From Stutzerimonas stutzeri (GTDB lineage: Bacteria; Pseudomonadota; Gammaproteobacteria; Pseudomonadales; Pseudomonadaceae), in NCBI RefSeq assembly GCF_000219605.1, contig NC_015740.1:2108001-2172000 (forward strand): a DNA stretch of 64,000 bases, written 5' to 3'. This document shows positions 1,570-54,290 of this stretch, one piece after another (positions within the stretch are counted from its first letter, which is position 1; every line of letters starts with the position of its first letter). The notes under the pieces were generated by a model that did no database searches, had not been told where the DNA came from, and saw only the letters and a program-made list of their open reading frames with translations. The position numbers and the translations under genes were made by a program.

Positions 1570-2784
1570 ATGCACGCTCTCCAACGTCTCGCGCCGGAAA
1601 TCCGCCAGTACCTGGTGGTGACCGGTAACTACTGGGCCTTCACACTCACCGACGGCGCATTGCGCATGTTGGTAGTGCTGCACTTCCATGCGCTGGGCTA
1701 CTCGCCCTTGCAGATCGCCGCGCTGTTCCTGTTCTACGAAATATTCGGCGTCGTCACCAACCTGATTGGCGGGTACCTCGGCGCGCGGCTTGGTCTGAAC
1801 CGGACGATGAACCTCGGCTTGGCGCTGCAGGTCGCGGCCCTGCTGATGCTCACCGTACCGGCCTCATGGCTGACCGTGCCCTGGGTAATGGGTGCGCAGG
1901 CGCTTTCCGGCATCGCCAAAGACCTGAACAAGATGTCCGCCAAGAGCTCGATCAAGCTGTTGGTACCCGACAGCCAGCAGGGCACGCTCTATAAGTGGGT
2001 CGCGATTCTCACCGGCTCGAAGAATGCCCTCAAGGGCGTAGGTTTCTTCCTTGGCGGCGCGCTTCTTACGCTGCTGGGGTTCGCCGGTGCGGTTCTCTCG
2101 ATGGCTGCCGTACTGGCGCTGGTCTGGCTGGCCAGTCTGGTGCTGCTGAAAAAGGATCTCGGCAAGGCCAAGGCCAAGCCCAAGTTTCGCGACATCCTGT
2201 CCAAGAGTCGCGCGATCAATGTGTTGTCCGCGGCGCGCCTGTTCCTGTTCGGCGCGCGAGACGTGTGGTTCGTGGTGGCCTTGCCGGTGTATCTGAGCGC
2301 GGTTTTCGGCTGGGACTTCTGGATGGTCGGCGGCTTCCTTGCGTGCTGGATCATCGGTTACGGCATTGTCCAGTCGGTCGCACCGGCGATCACCGGCAAA
2401 CGCAGTGGCAAGGTCCCGGATGGTCGGGCGGCATGCCTATGGGCAGCTTCGCTGGCGGCATTGCCTGCGGCAATTGCGATCGGGCTGGCGACGGCTGCGT
2501 CGCCACAGTGGGTGCTGATCGGAGGATTGATGTTGTTTGGCATGCTGTTTGCGGTGAATTCATCGCTGCACAGCTATCTGATCGTCAGCTACGCCAAGGA
2601 GGACGGTGTCTCACTGGACGTGGGTTTCTACTACATGTCCAACGCCCTGGGGCGGCTGGTGGGCACGCTGCTCTCGGGTTGGGTGTTCCAGGCCTACGGC
2701 CTGCAGGCTTGCCTGTGGGTGTCGTCCCTTTTCGTAGTGCTCGCCGCGCTTATCTCTCTGTGGTTGCCGCGACACGACGGCTAG
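1570..2784 (+). CDS. arsJ: Organoarsenical efflux MFS transporter ArsJ
   Basis: 404 residues with about twelve hydrophobic segments. The N-terminal block EIRQYLVVTGNYWAFTLTDG, the downstream ALRMLVVLHFHALGY and the loop KDLNKMSAKSSIKLL are characteristic of ArsJ. It exports 1-arseno-3-phosphoglycerate made by the adjacent GAPDH, giving arsenate resistance without reduction to arsenite. The start is uncertain: ATG 1570 matches the expected N-terminus, while an in-frame GTG at 1540 would add ten residues; neither has a strong ribosome site. The gene ends 34 bp from the convergent porin gene. Confidence 0.92.
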   Translation: MHALQRLAPEIRQYLVVTGNYWAFTLTDGALRMLVVLHFHALGYSPLQIAALFLFYEIFGVVTNLIGGYLGARLGLNRTMNLGLALQVAALLMLTVPASWLTVPWVMGAQALSGIAKDLNKMSAKSSIKLLVPDSQQGTLYKWVAILTGSKNALKGVGFFLGGALLTLLGFAGAVLSMAAVLALVWLASLVLLKKDLGKAKAKPKFRDILSKSRAINVLSAARLFLFGARDVWFVVALPVYLSAVFGWDFWMVGGFLACWIIGYGIVQSVAPAITGKRSGKVPDGRAACLWAASLAALPAAIAIGLATAASPQWVLIGGLMLFGMLFAVNSSLHSYLIVSYAKEDGVSLDVGFYYMSNALGRLVGTLLSGWVFQAYGLQACLWVSSLFVVLAALISLWLPRHDG

Positions 2785-2818
2785 GGCAGGGCGGGCGCCG
2801 AGCACCCGCCTGACATGA

Positions 2819-13296: not shown

Positions 13297-13899
13297 GGTT
13301 TTCCTTAGTACTACTGCCACGCGGAAGGTAGCTGTCACTGCACTCTTGTTTTATTGGTTTCCCATGACGACGCAGCAACGAGCTGGGCGATCTGAAGCTC
13401 GTATCGGCTAGTAGCGTGGATTCTTGAAACTTCGAAGCCGGTGCTAGCCTTGCGCCATTATGGCGCGCGCTATGGTATTGCTTTCCGAAGAATGTGAACC
13501 ACGTCGCTCGACCAATGACGGAGCAAATGCAGCTTTCACTGACTCAGGTCATGATTTCGAGGGCAGGGGCGGCGGTCCTAGTTGGCATCTTGCTGTAACC
13601 GCGCACTGCTAAAGAACAGAAGCGGCGTCATGCATCACGCCGGTGCAAACGGGCATGAGACATAGCGCCGCTTTACAGAATGGCAAAGCGATATTAGCGT
13701 TGCCGACCCGTCTGGCAGGCGTTTGGAAAAGACGTCAGTGAACGGGCATCTTTTCTGCATTCCTCCGTTGCGTTCGCTGCGAACCCCTTATGAAAACGAT
13801 GGTCGTAGGCTCTACGCCGGCAAGACCGGGCAACACCGCAAGGCAGCTGCTGTTCCTACAAGCAGTGCATCGATTGGAACCTTCATTTCAAGGACTCAC
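13297..13899 (+). other. 603-bp intergenic region between the chemoreceptor and galU
   Basis: This divergent gap contains no convincing gene on either strand. It should hold the promoters of both flanking genes, but I could not fix a strong -35/-10 pair. Two items stand out: a GGGCAGGG octamer at 13561-13568 oriented towards dif, and a perfect short palindrome GTTCGC-T-GCGAAC at 13772-13784, which could be an operator or a remnant repeat. Confidence 0.4.
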
Positions 13900-17495: not shown

Positions 17496-18449
17496 TCAAC
17501 CGTACTCGCTCTTCAGCGCGGCGGCGACCATAGCGCTTGAGTCGAGCACCGTGAGGCGCCGGCTGACCAGCTCAGAGGGAAGACGGAACGGCGGAACGGT
17601 GTCGGTGATCACCAACTGGTCGAATACCGGGCTCTCCAGGATTTCCGGCCCGCCGGTGAACAGGCCGTGGGCCGCCGCTGCGTGGACCTGCCGCGCGCCG
17701 GCCTTGCGGCAGGCCTCGCCGGCGCGTAACAGAGTGCCGCCGGTGCTGATCAGATCATCGACGATGATCGCGATCCGCTCGTGAACGTCGCCGACCAGCA
17801 TCGTTCCGGTCACGATGTCGTTGCTGCGGTACTTCTCCATGTAGGCGCTGCCAACCGCGCGCCCGATATGCCGCTCCAGCGCCCGGCGAAAGGATTCCGC
17901 ACGCTTGGCGCCGCCGGCATCGGGCGAGACCGCTACCAGATCGACATCACCAGGCAGCTGCGTAAAGTGCGCGGCGAACAGCTCGGCGCTCTCGATATGC
18001 CGCGTGGGGATGCGGAACGCATTGTCGAACGCAGCCAGGTTGTGCACCTCGAAGGTCGTCAGGCGATCCACCCGACAGGCCTCGAACAGCGCCGCCACGT
18101 AGCGGGTGATGATCGGGTCCTGGAACTGGGTACGACGCTCCTTGCGTGCATAGCAGAGATAGGGTGCGACCACCTCAACGTGGCGGGCACCGGCGTCCTT
18201 CAGGGCGCCGCAGAAGAACAACAGGCGGCAGAGCTTGTCGTTCACGCTGCGCTCGTCATCGCCGTACAACGCATGGAAGACGACGGCGTTGCGGCTTTCC
18301 ACAGACGTCAGGGCGCGGGTCTTGTGCTCGCCGTCTTCGAAGGCGCGCTCTTCGAGTTCGGCCAGCTCGAGCGCCATGTGTCGGGCGACACGAGCGGCAT
18401 ATTCCTGGGTGCCATGCAGCGCGAACAACAGAGGAGGGCGGGTGTTCAT
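17496..18449 (-). CDS. Divergent ribose-phosphate diphosphokinase (PRPP synthetase paralogue)
   Basis: 317 residues, normal for the family. The C-terminal PRPP-binding loop DDLISTGGT is intact, as are VSPDAGGAKRAE and the PYLCYARKERRTQFQDPI catalytic region (usually PYARQDRK). The canonical DLHxxQIQGFF metal site is replaced by EVHNLAAFDNAF, so this is a specialised paralogue and not the housekeeping Prs. It would make PRPP from ribose-5-phosphate and ATP. It overlaps the upstream kinase gene by 4 bp (ATGA), suggesting a joint role, perhaps in pentose or nucleoside salvage; that is inference. Confidence 0.88.
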   Translation of the reverse strand: MNTRPPLLFALHGTQEYAARVARHMALELAELEERAFEDGEHKTRALTSVESRNAVVFHALYGDDERSVNDKLCRLLFFCGALKDAGARHVEVVAPYLCYARKERRTQFQDPIITRYVAALFEACRVDRLTTFEVHNLAAFDNAFRIPTRHIESAELFAAHFTQLPGDVDLVAVSPDAGGAKRAESFRRALERHIGRAVGSAYMEKYRSNDIVTGTMLVGDVHERIAIIVDDLISTGGTLLRAGEACRKAGARQVHAAAAHGLFTGGPEILESPVFDQLVITDTVPPFRLPSELVSRRLTVLDSSAMVAAALKSEYG

Positions 18450-19513
18450 GGATGACTCCTGCTTGGACGGGGACGAGTGGACGCGAGCTGCAGGTAGCCC
18501 AGGCCCAGTGCCTGGTGATCGAGCAGATAGAGGCGTGACTGTCGCAGCAACGCACGTGCCTGTTCAGCCTTGGCCTGGGCAGCTTCGGCTGTGGCCTGGC
18601 GCTGGGCGCTGCCGGCCAGGGTGAAGCTGCGAGTCGCCGCGCGAACCGATAGGAACAGCGGCAACGGTGCACACTTTTCGGCCTCGCCACTCTCATCCAG
18701 ATAGGCTCGCAAAACAGTCGGCGCCAGATCAGCCAACTGGTGGTGCTGCAGATCCATCAGCACGAAGGCGAGGTCATGCAGGACATCGATACAGGCAATC
18801 TCGTCGCTGAACTCGATGCCGTCGAACAGGGTAGGCCGCCCTTCGAACAGGCAGATGTTCGCCAATCGCATATCGCCATGGCAGCGCCGCACGCATCCAT
18901 CGCGGCGCCGCCGGTCCAGCTCTGCCGACAGCTGATCGAGCAGGGCCAACTGGTCCCGGTAGAGTGCCTGCACCGCGTTTCCATCGAGCAATGCGCACTG
19001 GCGGCGCAGCTCCTGATGATTGGTCTCGATGGATCGGCGTATGCCAGCGCTGCCACCAAAGGCCGGCGTTCGCTCGGCACCGGCATGAAAACGAGCGATC
19101 TCGACGCCCAAGGTCTGCATCAGCGAGGTCGTCAGCTCGCCGGCCAGGGCCATGTGATCGAACAATGCGGACTGCGGAAAGCGGCGCATCACCACGCCCC
19201 AATCCAGCACCTCGCCGTCCGCGTCGAAGGCCAGCACGCCAGCGCGATCCCGGGTGATCGCGCTCACCCTGAGGTAAAGGCCAGGTGCCGTGCGCCGGTT
19301 CAGCCGCAGCTCGGCATGGCAGGCGCGCTCGCGCTTTTCCAGCGTGAGAAAATCCAGCGACGCATAGGCGATCTCGCGCTTGAGCTTGTAGACGCGTTCG
19401 CCACACAGAAAGATCAGCGAGCCATGGGTCTCGATACGCTCGACCGTACCGCCCGGGCAGCCGTAGCTGTCAGCGCGGGAAAGAAAGCCGATGACCTCGT
19501 GCTGACCGCTCAT
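18446..19513 (-). CDS. Aminoglycoside-phosphotransferase-like kinase (COG2187 type)
   Basis: 355 residues. The catalytic loop is CHGDMRLANICLFEG (HGD-x4-N) followed by the metal-binding FDGIEF. Upstream are a glycine-rich start (HGSLIFLCGERVYKLKR) and VMRRFPQSALFDHM. This is the N-terminal half of COG2187 proteins, which in many bacteria are fused to a second P-loop kinase domain; here that domain is missing. The substrate is unknown and antibiotic resistance is not implied. ATG 19513 has AAGGGA close upstream; a GTG at 19537 is possible. It is first in the operon with the PRPP synthetase. Confidence 0.8.
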   Translation of the reverse strand: MSGQHEVIGFLSRADSYGCPGGTVERIETHGSLIFLCGERVYKLKREIAYASLDFLTLEKRERACHAELRLNRRTAPGLYLRVSAITRDRAGVLAFDADGEVLDWGVVMRRFPQSALFDHMALAGELTTSLMQTLGVEIARFHAGAERTPAFGGSAGIRRSIETNHQELRRQCALLDGNAVQALYRDQLALLDQLSAELDRRRRDGCVRRCHGDMRLANICLFEGRPTLFDGIEFSDEIACIDVLHDLAFVLMDLQHHQLADLAPTVLRAYLDESGEAEKCAPLPLFLSVRAATRSFTLAGSAQRQATAEAAQAKAEQARALLRQSRLYLLDHQALGLGYLQLASTRPRPSRSHP

Positions 19514-19868
19514 CTGTCCCTTAGGATTCTTCGGCACGGTAGGCCCCTTGGGCGCCGTCGGCGCGAAACAAGGGGCAGCTGTCTGCGAGTCTAGCTGCGC
19601 GACGGCAGGCTGCTCGACGCATCGCTGATGAAACGCGGGACCGCCTCGCGGTTAGTGAAAAACGAAAGAGAAGCGAGGGTGGTAGCAATCAGGAAAGTAG
19701 AGGAAGCAAGCGCCGAGGATACGGAGCTGGCAGACGCAACCTATATCCAATTTAACATAATATAGATTATGCGAAATCACATGATATTCCTGCAGGTGCT
19801 CGGCTAGTCACTTTTATCGCTCGTCGACCCTGCAGTTGACGCGCCGATTGCACCCGCCTCAATTGCAT
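19514..19868. other. 355-bp intergenic region carrying dif
   Basis: No gene is seen. The centre (about 19738-19795) is strikingly AT-rich against a GC-rich background and contains the XerCD site annotated separately. The left part should hold the promoter of the kinase/PRPP synthetase operon. Confidence 0.6.
19750..19777 (-). other. dif: dif site (XerCD chromosome dimer resolution site)
   Basis: The 28-bp sequence has the two-arm, six-base-spacer design of dif. On the plus strand it reads ATTTAACATAA (19750-19760), TATAGA (19761-19766), TTATGCGAAAT (19767-19777). The complement gives XerC arm ATTTCGCATAA and XerD arm TTATGTTAAAT. The XerD arm is identical to that of Escherichia coli dif, and the XerC arm shares CGCATAA. 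XerC/XerD recombine sister chromosomes here under FtsK control. Nine GGGNAGGG octamers (KOPS-like) in the window all point to it: plus strand at 2784 and 13561; minus strand at 24063, 28930, 29625, 37287, 39512, 48040 and 53998. The sites were found by reading, not by a program. Confidence 0.93.
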
Positions 19869-20753
19869 TCACGCTCGTCCGCGGAATGCTGCGCGAAATT
19901 CGCTGGGTTTGAGGCCAGCCTGCTTTCTGAAGAATCGGCTGAAATACGCAGCGTCGGCGTAGCCCAGGTCATGGGCGATCTGCTGGATGTCCAATGCGGT
20001 ATATGCAAGCTGTCGTTGTGCTTCGCGCACGATGCGTTCGTTGATGACGGCTGTCGGCGATTCGCCGAGTTCTTCGCGGCAGGCTCTGCCCAGCGTGGCC
20101 GGCGTGATGCCCAGCGCTTCGGCATACAGCGCGAGCGGCCAATGCTGCTTGAAGTGCTGATCGATCAGTTCGCGGAATTGACCGAGCAATGCCGAGCGTC
20201 TGCCGTTGGCCGGCCTTGCGGTCAGGGTCGGCTGATTGAGCCGTGTGATCTGTACCAGCAAGGCGATCAGCAAGGCATGGCCGGCCGCCACGTTGTCGCG
20301 TTCCTGGCCTTGCGCTTCGTTCTGAATCAGCTGAATCAGTGGCCAGATGGGTTCCGTGCCATCCGCAATCCAAGGCAAGGGAATCACCACCGGACGCTGC
20401 ATCATTGCCAGCAGATCGCTGGAGAGAATACGTGCCATGGACTCCAGCGGCCGTTGCGCTGCCGTGATGACCGGACCATCGGTCTCCGCGCTATAGCGAA
20501 ACGCATGCACGGTGCGTTGCGGCAGCAGGATCAGGCACGGCGCATGGAAAGCCATGCGACTGTTCTCCAGCGATACCTCGCCCTGGCCGTTGCGCACGTA
20601 GACGACCTGCAGCAACGCATCGTGCTGATGGGGCCGGATTTCGCGCTGATGCATGTCGCCGCGGTCACTGATCCACTCCAGATGCAGCAAATCCTGCCAC
20701 GCCGGCAACGCGGCCTGGCCGTAAAGCGCGTAATTGGGAATGCGTCTGCTCAT
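19869..20753 (-). CDS. AraC family transcriptional regulator (PobR-like)
   Basis: 294 residues from ATG 20753. An N-terminal cupin-like sensor (RPHQHDALLQVVYVRNGQGEV) is followed by two helix-turn-helix motifs at the C-terminus, with the family signature IQQIAHDLGYADAAYFSRFFRKQAGLKPSEFR. The opening RIPNYALYGQ and layout resemble PobR-type regulators that respond to aromatic acids. It is divergent from the FUSC/HlyD efflux operon (149 bp between starts), and AaeAB-like pumps export hydroxybenzoic acids, so it probably controls that operon with an aromatic-acid inducer. The regulatory link is inferred from position. Confidence 0.88.
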   Translation of the reverse strand: MSRRIPNYALYGQAALPAWQDLLHLEWISDRGDMHQREIRPHQHDALLQVVYVRNGQGEVSLENSRMAFHAPCLILLPQRTVHAFRYSAETDGPVITAAQRPLESMARILSSDLLAMMQRPVVIPLPWIADGTEPIWPLIQLIQNEAQGQERDNVAAGHALLIALLVQITRLNQPTLTARPANGRRSALLGQFRELIDQHFKQHWPLALYAEALGITPATLGRACREELGESPTAVINERIVREAQRQLAYTALDIQQIAHDLGYADAAYFSRFFRKQAGLKPSEFRAAFRGRA

Positions 20754-20901
20754 GGGCGGCCCAGAACTCGAAACAACGAAAGTGCGCTGATTGTCCTGTT
20801 GCTTGTTCAATTTGTCACAGGTGGATGTCGTTAAATGTCACGTCAACGCGTGCCGGCCGCCCTCTCCCGCCCTTGGCCCACGTCTCTCGAACAATACGCC
20901 T

Positions 20902-24044: not shown

Positions 24045-25495
24045 GCCGCTACCTGTACCCCGCCCTGCCCCTGCTCGTCACGCTGCTCGCCGCTTGCAGT
24101 GCGGTCGGCCCGGACTACCGCGTACCGGACCAGGCCGTGGTGCGCCAGGCTGCAGCGCAGGCGCCATTCGATACGCTCGGCAATCGAGAAGTCGAACAGA
24201 CGCCGCTGCCGGACGGCTGGTGGCAGCTGTACGACGATCCCCTGCTCGACAGGCTGGTGCGCGAGGCGCTGGCGGGCAACCGTGACATACGCCAGGCCCA
24301 TCACAACCTGCGTCAGGCCTATCAGGGCTTCCAGATGGCCCATCACGCCCAGGAAGTGGTGGTGGGTGGCGACGGTTCACTGGCGCGCGGCCAGCTGTCC
24401 AGCGAGGCGCTGGCGCTGGAAGAGAAGCTGCCGGTGATGAACCTGGCCGATGCCGGCCTCGCCGTGAGCTATCAGCTGGACCTGTTCGGCCAGCTGCGGC
24501 GCGGCGCCGAAGCCGCCGGTGCGACAGCCGACGCCAGTGCGTCGCTGCTCGAGGCGGCACGCATCAGTGCGGTAGCCGGGGTCGTGCGCAGCTACATGAC
24601 GGCCTGCCATGCCGGCGAAGAGCTGGCCATCGCCGAACACTCGCTGGCGATCCAGCAGCGCCAGCTTGAGGTGGCCTCCCGCCTGCTCGCTGGCGGCCGC
24701 GGCAATGAAGTGGATGTTGCCCGCGCCCGAGCGCAGGTCGAAACCCTGCGCGCCGAGCTGCCTCCCTTCGAGGCGAAGAAGGCCGCGGCGCTGTATCGGC
24801 TCGCCGCCCTGCTCGGTCACACACCGGGCGAGCTGCCTGAAGCCGCCGCGGCCTGCAACCACGCCCCACAGCTGAGTCAGCCGATTCCGCTTGGTGACGG
24901 CGCCGCCCTGCTCCGCCGACGCCCCGACATTCGCGCAGCCGAACGAAGCCTGGCCGCGGCCACGGCACAGATCGGCGTGGCCACGGCGATGATGTACCCA
25001 CAGATCAGTCTCGGCGGCACGGCAGGCTACACCGGCATGCTCGAACACCTCGGAGATGCGGTGACGCAGCGCTGGGCATTCGGCCCTTCGATCAGCTGGC
25101 ACTTTCCAACCCAGGTCGATCGCGCCCGGGTGCGTGCCATGGAAGCTGGAGCAGACGCCGCCCTAGCCCGCTTCGACGGTGTGGTGCTGGAGGCACTGAG
25201 GGAAACCCAGACCCTGCTCAGCCGCTACGCGCATGATCTGCAGCGCGACCAGGCGTTGCACGAGGCGCGTGACGCGGCTCGCAACGCCGCCGATCACACC
25301 CGCCGGCTGTACCAGGAGGGTCGCCTGGGTTATCTCGACAGCCTGGACGCCGAGCGCACCCTGGCCACCGCCCAGGCCGCGCTGGCCGCCTCGCAGGCGC
25401 AGCTTTCACTGGATCAGGTCGATCTGTCCCTTGCCCTAGGTGGAGGCTGGCGCACGAGCCAGCCGCCCGCCGCCAGCCAGGAGGACGACGGTTGA
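24041..25495 (+). CDS. NodT family outer-membrane efflux lipoprotein
   Basis: 484 residues with a lipoprotein signal peptide, lipobox LLAAC with Cys19 as the acylation site. Two TolC/OEP repeats follow, including GNRDIRQAHHNLRQAYQG in the first and RRRPDIRAAERSLAAATAQIG in the second. It is the outer-membrane exit duct of the tripartite pump. ATGA overlap with the adaptor gene; its stop overlaps the LysR start (TGATG). Confidence 0.94.
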   Translation: MSRYLYPALPLLVTLLAACSAVGPDYRVPDQAVVRQAAAQAPFDTLGNREVEQTPLPDGWWQLYDDPLLDRLVREALAGNRDIRQAHHNLRQAYQGFQMAHHAQEVVVGGDGSLARGQLSSEALALEEKLPVMNLADAGLAVSYQLDLFGQLRRGAEAAGATADASASLLEAARISAVAGVVRSYMTACHAGEELAIAEHSLAIQQRQLEVASRLLAGGRGNEVDVARARAQVETLRAELPPFEAKKAAALYRLAALLGHTPGELPEAAAACNHAPQLSQPIPLGDGAALLRRRPDIRAAERSLAAATAQIGVATAMMYPQISLGGTAGYTGMLEHLGDAVTQRWAFGPSISWHFPTQVDRARVRAMEAGADAALARFDGVVLEALRETQTLLSRYAHDLQRDQALHEARDAARNAADHTRRLYQEGRLGYLDSLDAERTLATAQAALAASQAQLSLDQVDLSLALGGGWRTSQPPAASQEDDG

Positions 25496-28460: not shown

Positions 28461-29924
28461 ATGCCTGCCCTATCCGCAACCCCTGATTGCTGCTGGAGCG
28501 CCAGCGCGCCGCGTGGCGACTTTCCGCGCAGCGAATGCGACGTGGTGGTGGTCGGCGCCGGCATCGTCGGGCTGAGCGCCGCCATGACGCTATGCGAAGC
28601 CGGCAAGTCCGTCGTGGTGCTCGAAGCCCGCGAGGTCGGCGGACAGGTCACCGGGCGCTCCACCGCAAAGGTCACCACCCAGCATGCGCTGATCTATCGC
28701 TACCTGATCGATACCTTCGGCCAGGAACTGGCGCAGTGCTACGCCGACGCCAACCGCGAAGCCGTGGAGCGTATTCGTCACTGGGTCACCGAGCACGCCA
28801 TCGATTGCGACTACCAGCGTCAGTCCGCCTACGCCTATGCGTGCTCGGCGGACTGGCGCCGAGCCATCGACGATGAAGCCGAAGCGGCGCGCCGCCTGGG
28901 CTTCGCGGCACGGGTCATCGACCAGCCGCCCCTGCCCTTCGCCACCGCCGGCGCACTGGAATTTCCGGATCAGGCCCAGTTCAACCCGACACGCTATCTG
29001 ATCGGCCTGGCCAACTCGCTGCACGCCCGCGGCGGGCGCATCCATCAGCACACCCGCGCGACGAGCTTCGAGCGCCAGGGGCGCTGGCAGGTTGGCTTCG
29101 ATGGCGGAAGTGCGGAAGCCGATCAGGTCATCCTCGCTACGCACATGCCGGTGGAAACGCCGGTCGACCTCGTCAGCCCAACCCAGCCACGTTGCCACGT
29201 GGCCATGGCCTTTCGTCCGCAGGACGGCGCGCATCTGGACGGCATGTTCATCGGCGTCGACGAGCCGACTCATTCCATCCGCATGGGCCGTGATGACCGG
29301 GGGGCGCTGTTCATCGTACTCGGTCCGCGCTTCAGGACCGGCCAGGACGCAGACGTCGCCAGGCGGTTCGTCGAACTCGAACACTGGGCACGCGGCCACC
29401 TGTCAGTGGGTGAGGCCGTCTGGCGCTGGTGCAACGAGGATTACGACACCGCCGACCGAGTCGCCTATGCCGGCGAGCCGGACCCGGAACAATCCCCCGG
29501 CCTGTTCGTGGCCACCGGGTTCAACGGCTGGGGTATCAGCAACGGCACCGCCGTCGGGCTGGGCATGGCCCGCCAGATCATCACCGGCCGCCGCCCGTGG
29601 AAGCAGCTCTACGACCCCAACCGTCCCTCCCCTGATGACTTCAATCAGAGCAGCGATAGCCAGACCAGGGTCGACGACCTCGATGCCATCGGCCCGGGCG
29701 AAGGCGGCGTGATCACCCGCGGCGATGAACAGCTCGCGGTGTGGCGCGACGATGCCGGCGGCCTGCACGCGGTGTCCGCGGCCTGCACCCACATGGGTTG
29801 CAGCGTGACCTGGAACAACGCCGACCGGACCTGGGACTGCCCCTGCCACGGCTCTATCTTCCAGGCGGACGGCGAAGTCATCCACGGCCCCGCCATCGAA
29901 CCGCTGGCCGCCCGCTCGCTTTGA
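28461..29924 (+). CDS. FAD-dependent oxidoreductase with C-terminal Rieske domain
   Basis: 487 residues. The DAO-type FAD-binding motif VVVVGAGIVGLSAA is at about 28-41, followed by GRSTAKVTTQH. The C-terminal 110 residues form a Rieske [2Fe-2S] domain with CTHMGC and CPCHGSIF, giving two Cys and two His ligands. Such fusions are found in general-stress clusters of Pseudomonas and rhizobia; the substrate is not known. GAGGAGGA lies 8 bp before the start. It lies upstream of the SDR gene on the same strand with a 152-bp gap. Confidence 0.92.
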   Translation: MPALSATPDCCWSASAPRGDFPRSECDVVVVGAGIVGLSAAMTLCEAGKSVVVLEAREVGGQVTGRSTAKVTTQHALIYRYLIDTFGQELAQCYADANREAVERIRHWVTEHAIDCDYQRQSAYAYACSADWRRAIDDEAEAARRLGFAARVIDQPPLPFATAGALEFPDQAQFNPTRYLIGLANSLHARGGRIHQHTRATSFERQGRWQVGFDGGSAEADQVILATHMPVETPVDLVSPTQPRCHVAMAFRPQDGAHLDGMFIGVDEPTHSIRMGRDDRGALFIVLGPRFRTGQDADVARRFVELEHWARGHLSVGEAVWRWCNEDYDTADRVAYAGEPDPEQSPGLFVATGFNGWGISNGTAVGLGMARQIITGRRPWKQLYDPNRPSPDDFNQSSDSQTRVDDLDAIGPGEGGVITRGDEQLAVWRDDAGGLHAVSAACTHMGCSVTWNNADRTWDCPCHGSIFQADGEVIHGPAIEPLAARSL

Positions 29925-37285: not shown

Positions 37286-37323
37286 CCCCTACCCGACCGG
37301 CGCGCCCCCAGGCGCAACGGCCT

Positions 37324-39327: not shown

Positions 39328-40878
39328 ATGAGTATTGCCGCTGTGAACGCCCGGCCTCTCGGACTACCGAAGGCCCAACCCGCTGTGCCCCCGGTTACTC
39401 GCCCTGCTCTGCAGATTCGCAGTAGCCACGATGACAAACGCAAGATCCTGTTCGTGACCTCCGAGCTGACTGACCTGGTCAAGACCGGCGGGCTCGCCGA
39501 CGTGTCCGCCGCCCTGCCCCGAGCACTTGGCGCACGCCACGATGTGCGTGTGCTGATTCCCGGTTATTCGCAAGTGATCAACAGCGGCCACCCTATCCGC
39601 ATTGTCGGCTCGCTGAGCGGATACGCCGAGGTACCCGGCTGCCGCATCGGCCGCATCGACATGCCGGATGGCCTGATCATCTATGTGCTGATCAGCCCTG
39701 AACTCTACGAGCGCGATGGTTCACCCTACGTCGACGGACACGGCAACGACTGGCTGGACAACCCGGTCCGCTTCGCCCGCCTCGGCCTGGCCGCTGCCGA
39801 GATCGCCGCCGGCACCGCCTGCATCAGCTGGGCGCCAGAGCTGGTCCACGCCCATGACTGGCCGGCAGGTCTGGCACCGGCGTACATGCACTGGCGCGGA
39901 CTGTCGACGCCCAGCGTGTTCACCATCCACAACCTCGCCTATCAGGGCAACATCGACATGTCCCAGCGGCGTCAGCTGGGCATTCCCGGCGAGGCCTGCG
40001 ACCCGGAGCGCATGGAGTTCTACGGCAAGCTGTCGCTGCTCAAGGCCGGCATCGCCTATGCCAATCACGTCACCACCGTGAGCTCGACCTACGCCAGGGA
40101 GATCACCACGCCGGAGTTCGGCTGCGGCATGGAAGGGTTCCTCAGCATGAAGGCCCGCCAGGGCCTGCTCAGCGGCTTGCTCAACGGCATCGACGATAGC
40201 TGGGAGCCGGAAAGCGACCCTTACCTCGTCAGCGGCTTCAGTGCCCGTGACTGGGCCGGCAAGCAGGCTAATGCCGCCTATGTGCGGGACGCGTTCGGGC
40301 TGGAGAAGCGCGACGCTCCGCTGTTCGCCGTGGTCTCGCGCCTGGTGCATCAGAAAGGCGTGGACCTGACCCTCGATGTGGCCCATGCCATCGTCGAAGG
40401 CGGCGGTCAGCTGGCCATTCTCGGCCAGGGCGAGAGCCAGATCGAAGCGCAGGTCCGTCAGCTGGCCGAGCAGTATCCCGGACAGGTCGGAGCGCACATC
40501 GGCTTCAACGAGACCGACGCGCGCCGTCTGTTCGCCGGCAGCGACTTCCTGCTCATGCCGTCACGCTACGAGCCCTGCGGCCTGAGCCAGATGTACGCCC
40601 AGCGCTACGCCTCGCTGCCCATCGCCCGGCGTACCGGCGGGCTTGCGGACTCCATCGAGGACGGCATCACCGGGTTCCTGTTCGACGCACCCGACGCGGC
40701 CAGCTATCGCCAGGCCGTACAGCGCGCCCTGGCGGTGCATCACCACCCTGAACTGCTCGGCGCCATGCGCTGCCGGGCCATGGCGGCCGGATTCTTCTGG
40801 CGCCATGCCATCGAACCCTATGACGCGCTCTACCAGCAGCTGCTCGGGGAGCGCCGCGAGGTTCGTCTTTTAATCTGA
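39328..40878 (+). CDS. glgA: Glycogen synthase
   Basis: 516 residues, GT5 family. The N-terminal sugar-nucleotide loop is KTGGLADVSAALPRAL, the middle has VHAHDWPAG, and the C-terminal retaining motif is EPCGLSQMYAQRYASLPI followed by RRTGGLADS. It extends alpha-1,4-glucan from ADP- or UDP-glucose. No glgC is in the window, so the donor supply is unclear. An N-terminal extension of about 38 residues precedes the usual start. GGGGAG precedes ATG 39328. It opens the glucan/trehalose operon. Confidence 0.95.
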   Translation: MSIAAVNARPLGLPKAQPAVPPVTRPALQIRSSHDDKRKILFVTSELTDLVKTGGLADVSAALPRALGARHDVRVLIPGYSQVINSGHPIRIVGSLSGYAEVPGCRIGRIDMPDGLIIYVLISPELYERDGSPYVDGHGNDWLDNPVRFARLGLAAAEIAAGTACISWAPELVHAHDWPAGLAPAYMHWRGLSTPSVFTIHNLAYQGNIDMSQRRQLGIPGEACDPERMEFYGKLSLLKAGIAYANHVTTVSSTYAREITTPEFGCGMEGFLSMKARQGLLSGLLNGIDDSWEPESDPYLVSGFSARDWAGKQANAAYVRDAFGLEKRDAPLFAVVSRLVHQKGVDLTLDVAHAIVEGGGQLAILGQGESQIEAQVRQLAEQYPGQVGAHIGFNETDARRLFAGSDFLLMPSRYEPCGLSQMYAQRYASLPIARRTGGLADSIEDGITGFLFDAPDAASYRQAVQRALAVHHHPELLGAMRCRAMAAGFFWRHAIEPYDALYQQLLGERREVRLLI

Positions 40879-47976: not shown

Positions 47977-50127
47977 ATGAGTAAGAAAAAGCCCCACGCG
48001 CCACAGGTCATGACCCCTTCCAGGATTCGCGAGGGCCTGCCCTTCCCTCTCGGGGCGACCTGGGACGGCTTGGGCGTGAATTTCGCCATCTTTTCCGCAC
48101 ACGCCACCAAAGTGGAGCTGTGCCTGTTCGATGCCAGCGGTGAAACCGAGATCGAGCGCATCGAACTGCCCGAGTACACCGACGAGATCTGGCACGGCTA
48201 CCTGCCCGACGCCCACCCCGGACAGATCTATGGCTATCGCGTGCACGGGCCCTACGACCCGGAGAACGGTCATCGCTTCAACCCCAACAAGCTGCTGATC
48301 GACCCCTACGCCAAACAACTGGTGGGCGAGCTGAAATGGTCGGAAGCGCTGTTCGGCTACACCATCGGCCATCCCGACGGCGATCTCAGCTTCGACGAGC
48401 GCGACAGCGCGCCCTTCGTGCCCAAGTGCAAGATCATCGACCCGGCCTTCACCTGGGGCCGCGACCATCCGGTGCAGGTGCCTTGGGACAAGACGATCAT
48501 CTACGAGACCCACGTGCGCGGTTACACCATGCGCCACCCGTCCGTGGCCGATGACGTCCGCGGCACCTTCGCCGGCTTCAAGACGCCGGAGGTCATCGAC
48601 TACATCCGCAAGCTCGGCGTCTCTTCCATCGAGTTCCTGCCCATTCATGCCTTCGTCCAGGACCAGCATCTGCTGGAAAAGGGCATGAGCAACTACTGGG
48701 GCTACAACAGCATCGCCTTCTTCGCACCGCATCCGAAGTATCTGGCCAGCGGCAAGATCACCGAATTCAAGGAAATGGTCGCGCACCTGCACAATGCCGA
48801 CCTCGAGGTGATCCTCGACGTGGTCTACAACCACACGGCCGAAGGCAACGAGCTGGGCCCGACGCTGTCCATGCGCGGCATCGACAATGCCTCCTACTAT
48901 CGCCTGATGCCGGATGACAAGCGCTACTACATCAACGATTCCGGCACCGGCAATACGCTGGACATGAGCCACCCCTGCGTACTGCAGATGGTCACCGATT
49001 CGCTGCGCTACTGGGCCACCGAGATGCACGTGGACGGCTTCCGCTTCGACCTGGCGACCATTCTCGGTCGCGAGCACTACGGCTTCGACGAGCGTCACGG
49101 CTTCCTCGTCGCCTGTCGCCAGGACCCGGTGCTGGCCAAGACCAAGCTGATCGCCGAACCTTGGGACTGCGGCCCCGGCGGCTATCAGGTCGGTGGCTTC
49201 CCACCGGGCTGGGCCGAGTGGAACGACCAGTTCCGCGACACCGTGCGGTCGTTCTGGAAAGGGGATGACGGCCAGCTGGCCGACTTCGCCAGCCGCCTGA
49301 CCGGCTCCGGCGACCTCTACAACCAGCGCGGGCGTCGGCCGTTCAGCTCGGTCAACTTCGTCACCGCCCACGACGGCTTCACCCTCAAGGACCTGGTGTC
49401 GTACAACCACAAGCACAACGAGGACAACGACGAGGACAACCGCGACGGCAGCGACAACAACCTGTCCTGGAACCACGGCGTGGAAGGCCACACCGACGAT
49501 CCGGAGATCAACGAGCTGCGCTATCGGCAGATGCGCAACTTCCTCGCCACGCTGCTGTTCTCCCAGGGCACCCCGATGATCGTCGCCGGTGACGAGTTCG
49601 CCCGGACCCAGCACGGCAACAACAACGCCTATTGCCAGGACAGCGAGATCGGCTGGGTGAACTGGGACATCAGCGAGGACAGCTACGGCCTGCTGGGCTT
49701 CGCCCGCAAGCTGATCCGCCTGCGTCAGCGCTTCCCGATGCTGCGCCGCAGCCGTTTCCTGGTCGGCGCCTACAACGAGGAACTGGGGGTCAAGGATGTC
49801 ACCTGGCTGGCGCCGAATGCCGAAGAGATGACCATCGAGCAGTGGGAAGATGCACACAACCGCTGCATGGGCATGCTCCTCGACGGCCGTGCCCAGCCGA
49901 CCGGCATCCGCCGCGCCGGTTCGGATGCGACGCTGCTGATCATCGTCAACTCGCACCACGACCTGGTGAATTTCACGCTGCCCGAGGTGCCCCAGGGCAT
50001 CTACTGGAACCGCCTGATCGACACCAACCACCCCACCGCGCGGCCGGAACGTTTCGACTTTAACGACGAGTACGCCGTCACCGGCCGCTCGCTGTTGCTG
50101 CTGGAACTGATCAAGGCTGACGAGTGA
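47977..50127 (+). CDS. glgX: Glycogen debranching enzyme
   Basis: 716 residues, GH13_11. An N-terminal CBM48 (GLGVNFAIFSAHATKVELCL) is followed by the catalytic barrel with DGFRFDLATILGRE (Asp), LIAEPWDCGPGG (Glu) and FVTAHDGFTLKDLVSYNHKH (Asp). It hydrolyses alpha-1,6 branches to give linear chains for TreY and MalQ. The start has GGAG upstream. The 99-bp leader contains an 8-bp inverted repeat, TGTCGGCG (47895-47902) and CGCCGACA (47927-47934). Confidence 0.95.
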   Translation: MSKKKPHAPQVMTPSRIREGLPFPLGATWDGLGVNFAIFSAHATKVELCLFDASGETEIERIELPEYTDEIWHGYLPDAHPGQIYGYRVHGPYDPENGHRFNPNKLLIDPYAKQLVGELKWSEALFGYTIGHPDGDLSFDERDSAPFVPKCKIIDPAFTWGRDHPVQVPWDKTIIYETHVRGYTMRHPSVADDVRGTFAGFKTPEVIDYIRKLGVSSIEFLPIHAFVQDQHLLEKGMSNYWGYNSIAFFAPHPKYLASGKITEFKEMVAHLHNADLEVILDVVYNHTAEGNELGPTLSMRGIDNASYYRLMPDDKRYYINDSGTGNTLDMSHPCVLQMVTDSLRYWATEMHVDGFRFDLATILGREHYGFDERHGFLVACRQDPVLAKTKLIAEPWDCGPGGYQVGGFPPGWAEWNDQFRDTVRSFWKGDDGQLADFASRLTGSGDLYNQRGRRPFSSVNFVTAHDGFTLKDLVSYNHKHNEDNDEDNRDGSDNNLSWNHGVEGHTDDPEINELRYRQMRNFLATLLFSQGTPMIVAGDEFARTQHGNNNAYCQDSEIGWVNWDISEDSYGLLGFARKLIRLRQRFPMLRRSRFLVGAYNEELGVKDVTWLAPNAEEMTIEQWEDAHNRCMGMLLDGRAQPTGIRRAGSDATLLIIVNSHHDLVNFTLPEVPQGIYWNRLIDTNHPTARPERFDFNDEYAVTGRSLLLLELIKADE

Positions 50128-53994: not shown

Positions 53995-54290
53995 CCGCCC
54001 TTCCCGCCTTTCAGCCGGTCACCCTAGTCGTCCGCAGCAGCCTTACCCCCCTAGAAAGCGGCGAGCCCACGTCGCATCGAACTCGCCGCACCAGAAAAAG
54101 ATGAACCGCCAACGCCGGGAAAAGTCGGAACAGATGTGCCCGGCGAATCCCGTCGTGCGCGCGAGTATTCCAGTACCCCGCGGAGCCTTCGATCCGAACA
54201 TTCGCGCCGGTCTTCTTTCCCGCCGTGCAGCCTGCTCGTCCGCTCCGCCAGCATCCGTCCCGGTCCGCGAGCCGGGCCAATGGAGTGACC

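Follow-up and report, generated by a model that had tools for sequence, protein, structure and literature searches.

A canonical dif site at the switch of GC skew and octamer polarity in Stutzerimonas stutzeri, and putative CTXphi-like prophages at the dif of related genomes

Is the 28-bp two-arm sequence in this part of the Stutzerimonas stutzeri chromosome the site at which chromosome dimers are resolved, and in what sense does it mark a terminus? The window analysed here is the whole 64,000-nt stretch, i.e., positions 2,108,001-2,172,000 of a one-contig genome of 4,547,930 bp. By sequence match, the 28-mer occupies genome positions 2127750-2127777 on the minus strand (Table 1); on the plus strand it reads ATTTAACATAA TATAGA TTATGCGAAAT. 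The initial annotation had described a two-arm site with a 6-bp spacer in an AT-rich island between genes, and its coordinates proved right: the site lies between the two ORFs listed in Table 1, and only 5 of its 28 bases are G or C, well under the genome G+C content. It is a palindrome with two mismatches per arm. The 26-base two-arm pattern with up to three mismatches had one match in the window (mean of 0.00 in 100 shuffles), and the 28-mer itself had one match in the 4,547,930 bp of the genome at the same threshold, compared to none for its reversed control. A second 28-mer of this type, which the annotation had considered a possible objection, is thus absent at up to three mismatches. A scan of positions 19500-19900 with promoter and terminator consensus sequences found nothing.

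Table 1. Positions of dif, its neighbouring genes and the KOPS-type octamers in the 64-kb window.
Feature	Position in window	Strand	Description
dif, 28 bp	19750..19777	-	XerC arm ATTTCGCATAA, spacer TCTATA, XerD arm TTATGTTAAAT; one genomic copy at up to 3 mismatches
XerD-binding arm	19750..19760	-	TTATGTTAAAT; same as the XerD arm of PAO1 dif (PMC2731167, in part)
Central hexamer	19761..19766	-	TCTATA; one base off PAO1 TGTATA (PMC2731167, in part)
XerC-binding arm	19767..19777	-	ATTTCGCATAA; from the sequence
Phosphotransferase-family (APH) ORF	18446..19537	-	XerD side; Pfam APH 3.8e-08
AraC-family regulator	19869..20810	-	XerC side, 92 bp off dif; Pfam HTH_18 5.5e-24
KOPS-type octamer	2784..2791	+	GGGNAGGG, directed at dif
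KOPS-type octamer	13561..13568	+	GGGNAGGG, directed at dif
KOPS-type octamer	24063..24070	-	GGGNAGGG, directed at dif
KOPS-type octamer	28930..28937	-	GGGNAGGG, directed at dif
KOPS-type octamer	29625..29632	-	GGGNAGGG, directed at dif
KOPS-type octamer	37287..37294	-	GGGNAGGG, directed at dif
KOPS-type octamer	39512..39519	-	GGGNAGGG, directed at dif
KOPS-type octamer	48040..48047	-	GGGNAGGG, directed at dif
KOPS-type octamer	53998..54005	-	GGGNAGGG, directed at dif

Intergenic location, proximity to the GC skew maximum, palindromic structure, low G+C content, and a conserved XerD arm are the hallmarks of dif named in PMC2731167 (in part). All of them are found in the 28-mer, which therefore belongs to the canonical dif class. 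We assign a probability of about 0.97 to its being the chromosomal dif in a pseudomonad of the Stutzerimonas group, and as such it is an ordinary, canonical γ-proteobacterial dif. The Pseudomonas aeruginosa PAO1 site GATTCGCATAATGTATATTATGTTAAAT differs from it by three substitutions, two in the outer bases of the XerC arm and one in the spacer (TCTATA versus TGTATA), whereas the arms are otherwise equal and the spacer is likewise 6 bp long (PMC2731167, in part). PAO1 dif is also intergenic and near the skew maximum (PMC2731167, in part), and KOPS converge on it (PMC6199493, in part). Three features are common to the site studied here and the E. coli dif/XerCD/FtsK-KOPS system, i.e., the KOPS motif GGGNAGGG, the FtsK gamma domain (PMC5357621, in part), and, according to the initial annotation, the XerD arm; in contrast to E. 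coli, no Tus and no MatP homologue was found in the genome.

The corresponding recombination machinery is encoded in the genome. Out of 16 matches to the phage integrase family, five were scanned with NCBIfam profiles, which assigned XerD (1,163,308-1,164,204; TIGR02225, 383.9 bits, cut-off 329.6) and XerC (595,036-595,935; TIGR02224, 346.4 bits, cut-off 335.15). The FtsK gamma domain was found at 2,332,820-2,333,002 (94.7 bits) inside an 860-aa frame. A 565-aa FtsK piece in locus L131, cut by the locus end, scores 753.8 bits with the full-length FtsK profile, under the cut-off of 1566. By analogy with E. coli and P. aeruginosa, FtsK at the septum would read the octamers and move both sister termini toward dif, where it would contact XerD on the synapsed dif sites and trigger strand exchange, by which a chromosome dimer would be resolved into two monomers. 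The XerD arm of the window is presumably identical to that of E. coli dif, as the initial annotation had it.

The GC skew was followed in the window and in sixty 20-kb genome stretches, of which 20 form one contiguous block with it; together they cover about 1.26 of 4.55 Mb. The maximum of the cumulative skew over 464 contiguous kb is at 2,128,551, 788 bp off the dif centre, and positions within 60 units of the peak extend from 2,119,396 to 2,130,331. The expected sign, positive to the left of dif and negative to the right, was observed in 38 of the 40 further stretches; the exceptions are the stretch at 4,305,001 (+0.0017) and the final 20 kb of the contig, beside dnaA (+0.017). The prediction that the skew switches at this site thus stood on the part of the chromosome covered, with a switch 0.8 kb from dif, compared to about 15 kb in PAO1 (PMC2731167, in part).

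The nine GGGNAGGG octamers reported earlier are all present at the places and on the strands given, each of them directed at dif, and there is no wrongly oriented copy in the 64-kb window; their number is not above chance (9 versus 10.2, sd 3.4, in shuffles). The perfect polarity claimed for them holds within the window, whereas beyond it the polarity is strong only. Over 464 contiguous kb, 20 of 24 copies to the left of dif are on the plus strand and 44 of 46 to the right are on the minus strand (64/70 in total, 6/70 misoriented). The best polarity split in this region is 2,121,561-2,132,063, between the two octamers that flank dif, so that the change of strand bias anticipated by the annotation does include dif on the part of the chromosome covered. 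Between dif and the geometric midpoint of the chromosome (2,273,965), 23 of 25 octamers are directed at dif and two at the midpoint. For 844 kb oriented by chromosome arm, 96 copies are on the leading strand and 10 on the lagging strand (96/106) without the 20-kb dnaA stretch, or 96/109 with it: the three copies in this first 20 kb of the left arm are all on the minus strand and none on the plus strand, against the expected polarity.

Two variants of the octamer were listed in full genome-wide, and 112 of their 143 copies are directed at dif (31/143 misoriented), with 52/71 for GGGAAGGG and 60/72 for GGGTAGGG. The first 100 of the 530 genomic GGGNAGGG places are all on the plus strand and were not used as a measure of polarity. 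From 3.86 Mb to the contig end (3860001-4547930), these two variants are without polarity (10 plus, 11 minus). For all four variants of GGGNAGGG beyond 3.86 Mb, 32 of 40 copies are directed at dif (18 stretches of 20 kb, two overlapping by 2 kb). A sign change of the octamers near the origin was rejected, since the four variants jointly keep their polarity and the skew is negative in 16 of the 18 stretches there.

The arm pattern CGYATAA-N6-TTATGTTAAA is present in 40 of 59 genomes of the family, that of the window included; 38 of them have exactly one match and two have two. The remaining 19 genomes have no match; their XerC arm may be a different one, and a missing dif does not follow from this. 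Within the genus, all six members match the pattern, and five of the six have the TCTATA spacer (own genome included). In another genus (g12; G011, G027, G037, G047, G056), four of five genomes are without a canonical arm match and the fifth has the odd spacer CACACC; a different XerC arm may be in use there. Second dif-like sites with different spacers were observed besides the usual dif in two genomes of the family (G032:C36:3503, locus L117; G036:C70:5625) and are possibly plasmid or element sites. The 26-mer with the TCTATA spacer was found in 69 contig stretches, with many from Stutzerimonas, Massilia, and Xenorhabdus among them. The nearest flank belongs to a MAG labelled Pseudomonas sp. 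(L109; 98.3% identity over 4,305 bp). The UBA9188 MAG has two dif contigs (L078, L109) with differing flanks. A two-dif chromosome was rejected in this case, as the AraC neighbour occurs there in two versions, which share 99 and 84% identity with the window gene, and UBA9188 is probably a mixed MAG.

In relatives without an insertion, alignments to the AraC gene start about 80-150 bp off dif. On the XerD side of the window, a ribose-phosphate pyrophosphokinase-like gene and the APH-family ORF overlap by 4 bases (17496-19537, minus strand); in L059, about 5 kb separates the matching upstream stretch from dif, versus 2.5 kb in the window. Among eight loci (L051, L059, L072, L075, L078, L087, L099, L107), the XerD-side flank is conserved to within 15 bp of dif and the XerC side differs. 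The distance from dif to the start of the AraC alignment is 2.0 kb in L051, from a MAG with the label Pseudomonas sp., 2.3 kb in S. chloritidismutans (L072), and, in S. kunmingensis, about 9.4 kb in L099/L145 and about 12.3 kb in L087/L144. At the far end of these four insertions, the XerC arm is kept and the XerD arm has diverged. A 1.8-kb insertion between dif and the AraC gene in L067 was not counted as an element, because it is without an XerC half-site.

At 8 of 87 dif places (91 loci), the XerC side has a further exact ATTATGCGAA oriented the same way; removal of two re-fetched loci leaves six such places, four of which are Stutzerimonas-group insertion loci. On the XerD side it was found at 1 of 87 places, and about 0.3 per side would be expected by chance (an estimate that assumes uniform bases). 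The extra copies in L062, L095, and L128 may be due to chance.

The two large insertions are putative CTXphi-like filamentous prophages at dif (L144:274-12488 and L145:415-9727) with an inverted, foldable attP pair. Each codes for a minor coat protein, a protein of the Zot/pI family, and a replication protein of the G2P type; in L145 the latter two are present as partial frames only. Further XerC half-sites are located inside both insertions, between units. A second, inverted half-site precedes the far-end and unit-boundary sites by 63-81 bp. Three of these half-site pairs (L144, L145), folded as single-stranded DNA, gave z-scores of -3.2, -5.5, and -3.1, compared to -0.7 for the window dif. 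An extra XerC half-site also occurs 185 bp past dif in L144 (274-486), ahead of the phage genes. L144 ends in two tandem 1,461-bp units that are 99.8% identical. Three ORFs of these units had no match in PHROGs, and neither a replication nor a coat gene was recognised among them; in Pfam, which was searched with two of the ORFs, one gave a ribbon-helix-helix match below the threshold. The same locus has a tandem duplication (L144:4221-8915; 99.96% identity over 2,351 bp) of a 2,344-bp module that comprises the replication gene and a regulator resembling a repressor; its two copies are not separated by an XerC half-site. What the small elements of L051 (1.85 kb) and L072 (2.17 kb) share with the phages is mainly the attP end, together with some 300-800 bp of further sequence; the L072 element keeps a fragment of a replication gene, and no replication gene was found among the three ORFs searched in L051. 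Both mini-elements are possible helper-dependent satellites.

These elements resemble CTXphi-type IMEX in four respects, namely a kept XerC half-site beside a diverged XerD arm, two inverted dif-like attP sites able to pair as single-stranded DNA, filamentous-phage genes, and arrays beside small elements (PMC4246890 and PMC5357621, each in part). They differ in their Stutzerimonas-group host and in a smallest unit of 1,461 bp without a recognised replication gene. None of the literature titles listed is on such dif elements in Stutzerimonas, and a search for Stutzerimonas, inovirus, and dif together found no paper. The position of the relatives' dif core at the junction of Xer-type insertions suggests that this core would be competent for recombination.

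How much of this assignment depends on the octamers? The initial annotation had put the chance of perfect polarity at 2 in 512, which is the wrong null, as it assumes an unbiased coin; this figure overstates the octamer case because G-rich octamers lean to the leading strand anyway. Among 56 octamer patterns of six G, one A, and one N (some mutually equivalent), the median leading-strand fraction in the 844 kb is about 0.74, and a nine-of-nine outcome has a chance of about 7% under the general G-skew and of 41% at the GGGNAGGG fraction of 0.906. The bias of GGGNAGGG is equalled by that of AGGNGGGG (41 leading versus 4 lagging, 0.91), and polarity alone is therefore no proof of reading by FtsK. 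The octamers could accordingly be a mere by-product of the leading-strand G excess and guide nothing, as the lack of their enrichment in the window and of enrichment of GGGTAGGG genome-wide (72 versus 80 for its reversed control) would also allow; GGGAAGGG reads identically backwards and so has no such control. Against this, GGGNAGGG ranks second of the 56 patterns in bias (96/106) and third in leading-strand count, and is about twice as frequent genome-wide as the reversed pattern (236 plus and 294 minus, 530 in total, versus 135 and 139, 274 in total), with the excess, by subtraction, in the C and G variants. Moreover, the genome encodes the FtsK gamma domain, and KOPS of P. aeruginosa are distributed likewise (PMC6199493, in part). 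We consider it improbable that the octamers guide nothing, and the finding is carried in any case by the 28-mer's identity and by where the switch falls, rather than by the nine-of-nine count.

The insertions in relatives raise the question of whether the window 28-mer could be an attL/attR junction, or its remnant, of an XerCD-using element rather than chromosomal dif. Elements do sit at dif in L051, L072, L087/L144, and L099/L145, and the window has two one-mismatch matches to the XerC core (4207 and 31254). Both are 11-16 kb off, at chance level (about 4 per 64 kb on both strands, by a 10-mer estimate), whereas no exact XerC half-site exists in the window besides dif, the AraC neighbour is as close to dif as in the uninserted relatives, only the 26-bp dif core is common to the window and the elements, and no Zot/pI-family match was found in the genome at E 0.001. 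A junction origin is hardly credible on these grounds; occupation of the site by an IMEX was likewise rejected, given the lack of an exact second half-site in the window and of a Zot/pI-family match in the genome, and the dif of the window looks empty. A limit concerns the word terminus, since the annotation had placed the replication terminus in the window. The contig starts with dnaA-dnaN-recF-gyrB, which puts the point opposite dnaA at about 2.274 Mb, and dif falls 146 kb (3.2% of the genome) short of it; in PAO1-UW the distance from dif to the midpoint is a far larger share of the genome. That the forks truly end at dif is favoured by the switch of skew there, but it is a rather doubtful reading in view of this distance and of the lack of a Tus homologue. 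Neither Tus (PF05472) nor MatP (PF06303) has a homologue in the genome, the E. coli positive controls having been matched, and a Tus/Ter or MatP/matS terminus was rejected for this reason. In PAO1-UW too the skew switches at dif: replication ends opposite oriC, and the switch of skew and KOPS and the end of segregation are at dif (PMC6199493, in part). On average over the chromosomes analysed there, the skew switch is separated from dif by 13 kb and from the predicted replication terminus by 71 kb (PMC6199493, in part). The present genome fits the PAO1-UW picture as far as that part of PMC6199493 describes it. The claim of a terminus therefore stands for the region of dimer resolution and skew switch and not for replication itself, whose forks may meet as far as 146 kb right of dif, outside the window.

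Taken as the chromosomal dif, the 28-mer defines where segregation ends on this chromosome. In the wider field this counts as routine annotation; it adds one further case in which skew and KOPS track dif rather than the point opposite oriC. With respect to the Stutzerimonas group, the evidence is about evenly balanced on a broader proposal, namely that its dif also serves as a landing pad for CTXphi-type filamentous phages that integrate as single strands and for helper-dependent mini-elements down to 1,461 bp, which retain hardly more than a folded attP pair with some small ORFs, while the window strain has an empty site and a skew and KOPS geometry whose centre has stayed within about 1 kb of dif, even though its forks probably meet elsewhere. 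The empty dif of the window provides the reference for reading phage and satellite insertions at Stutzerimonas-group dif sites.
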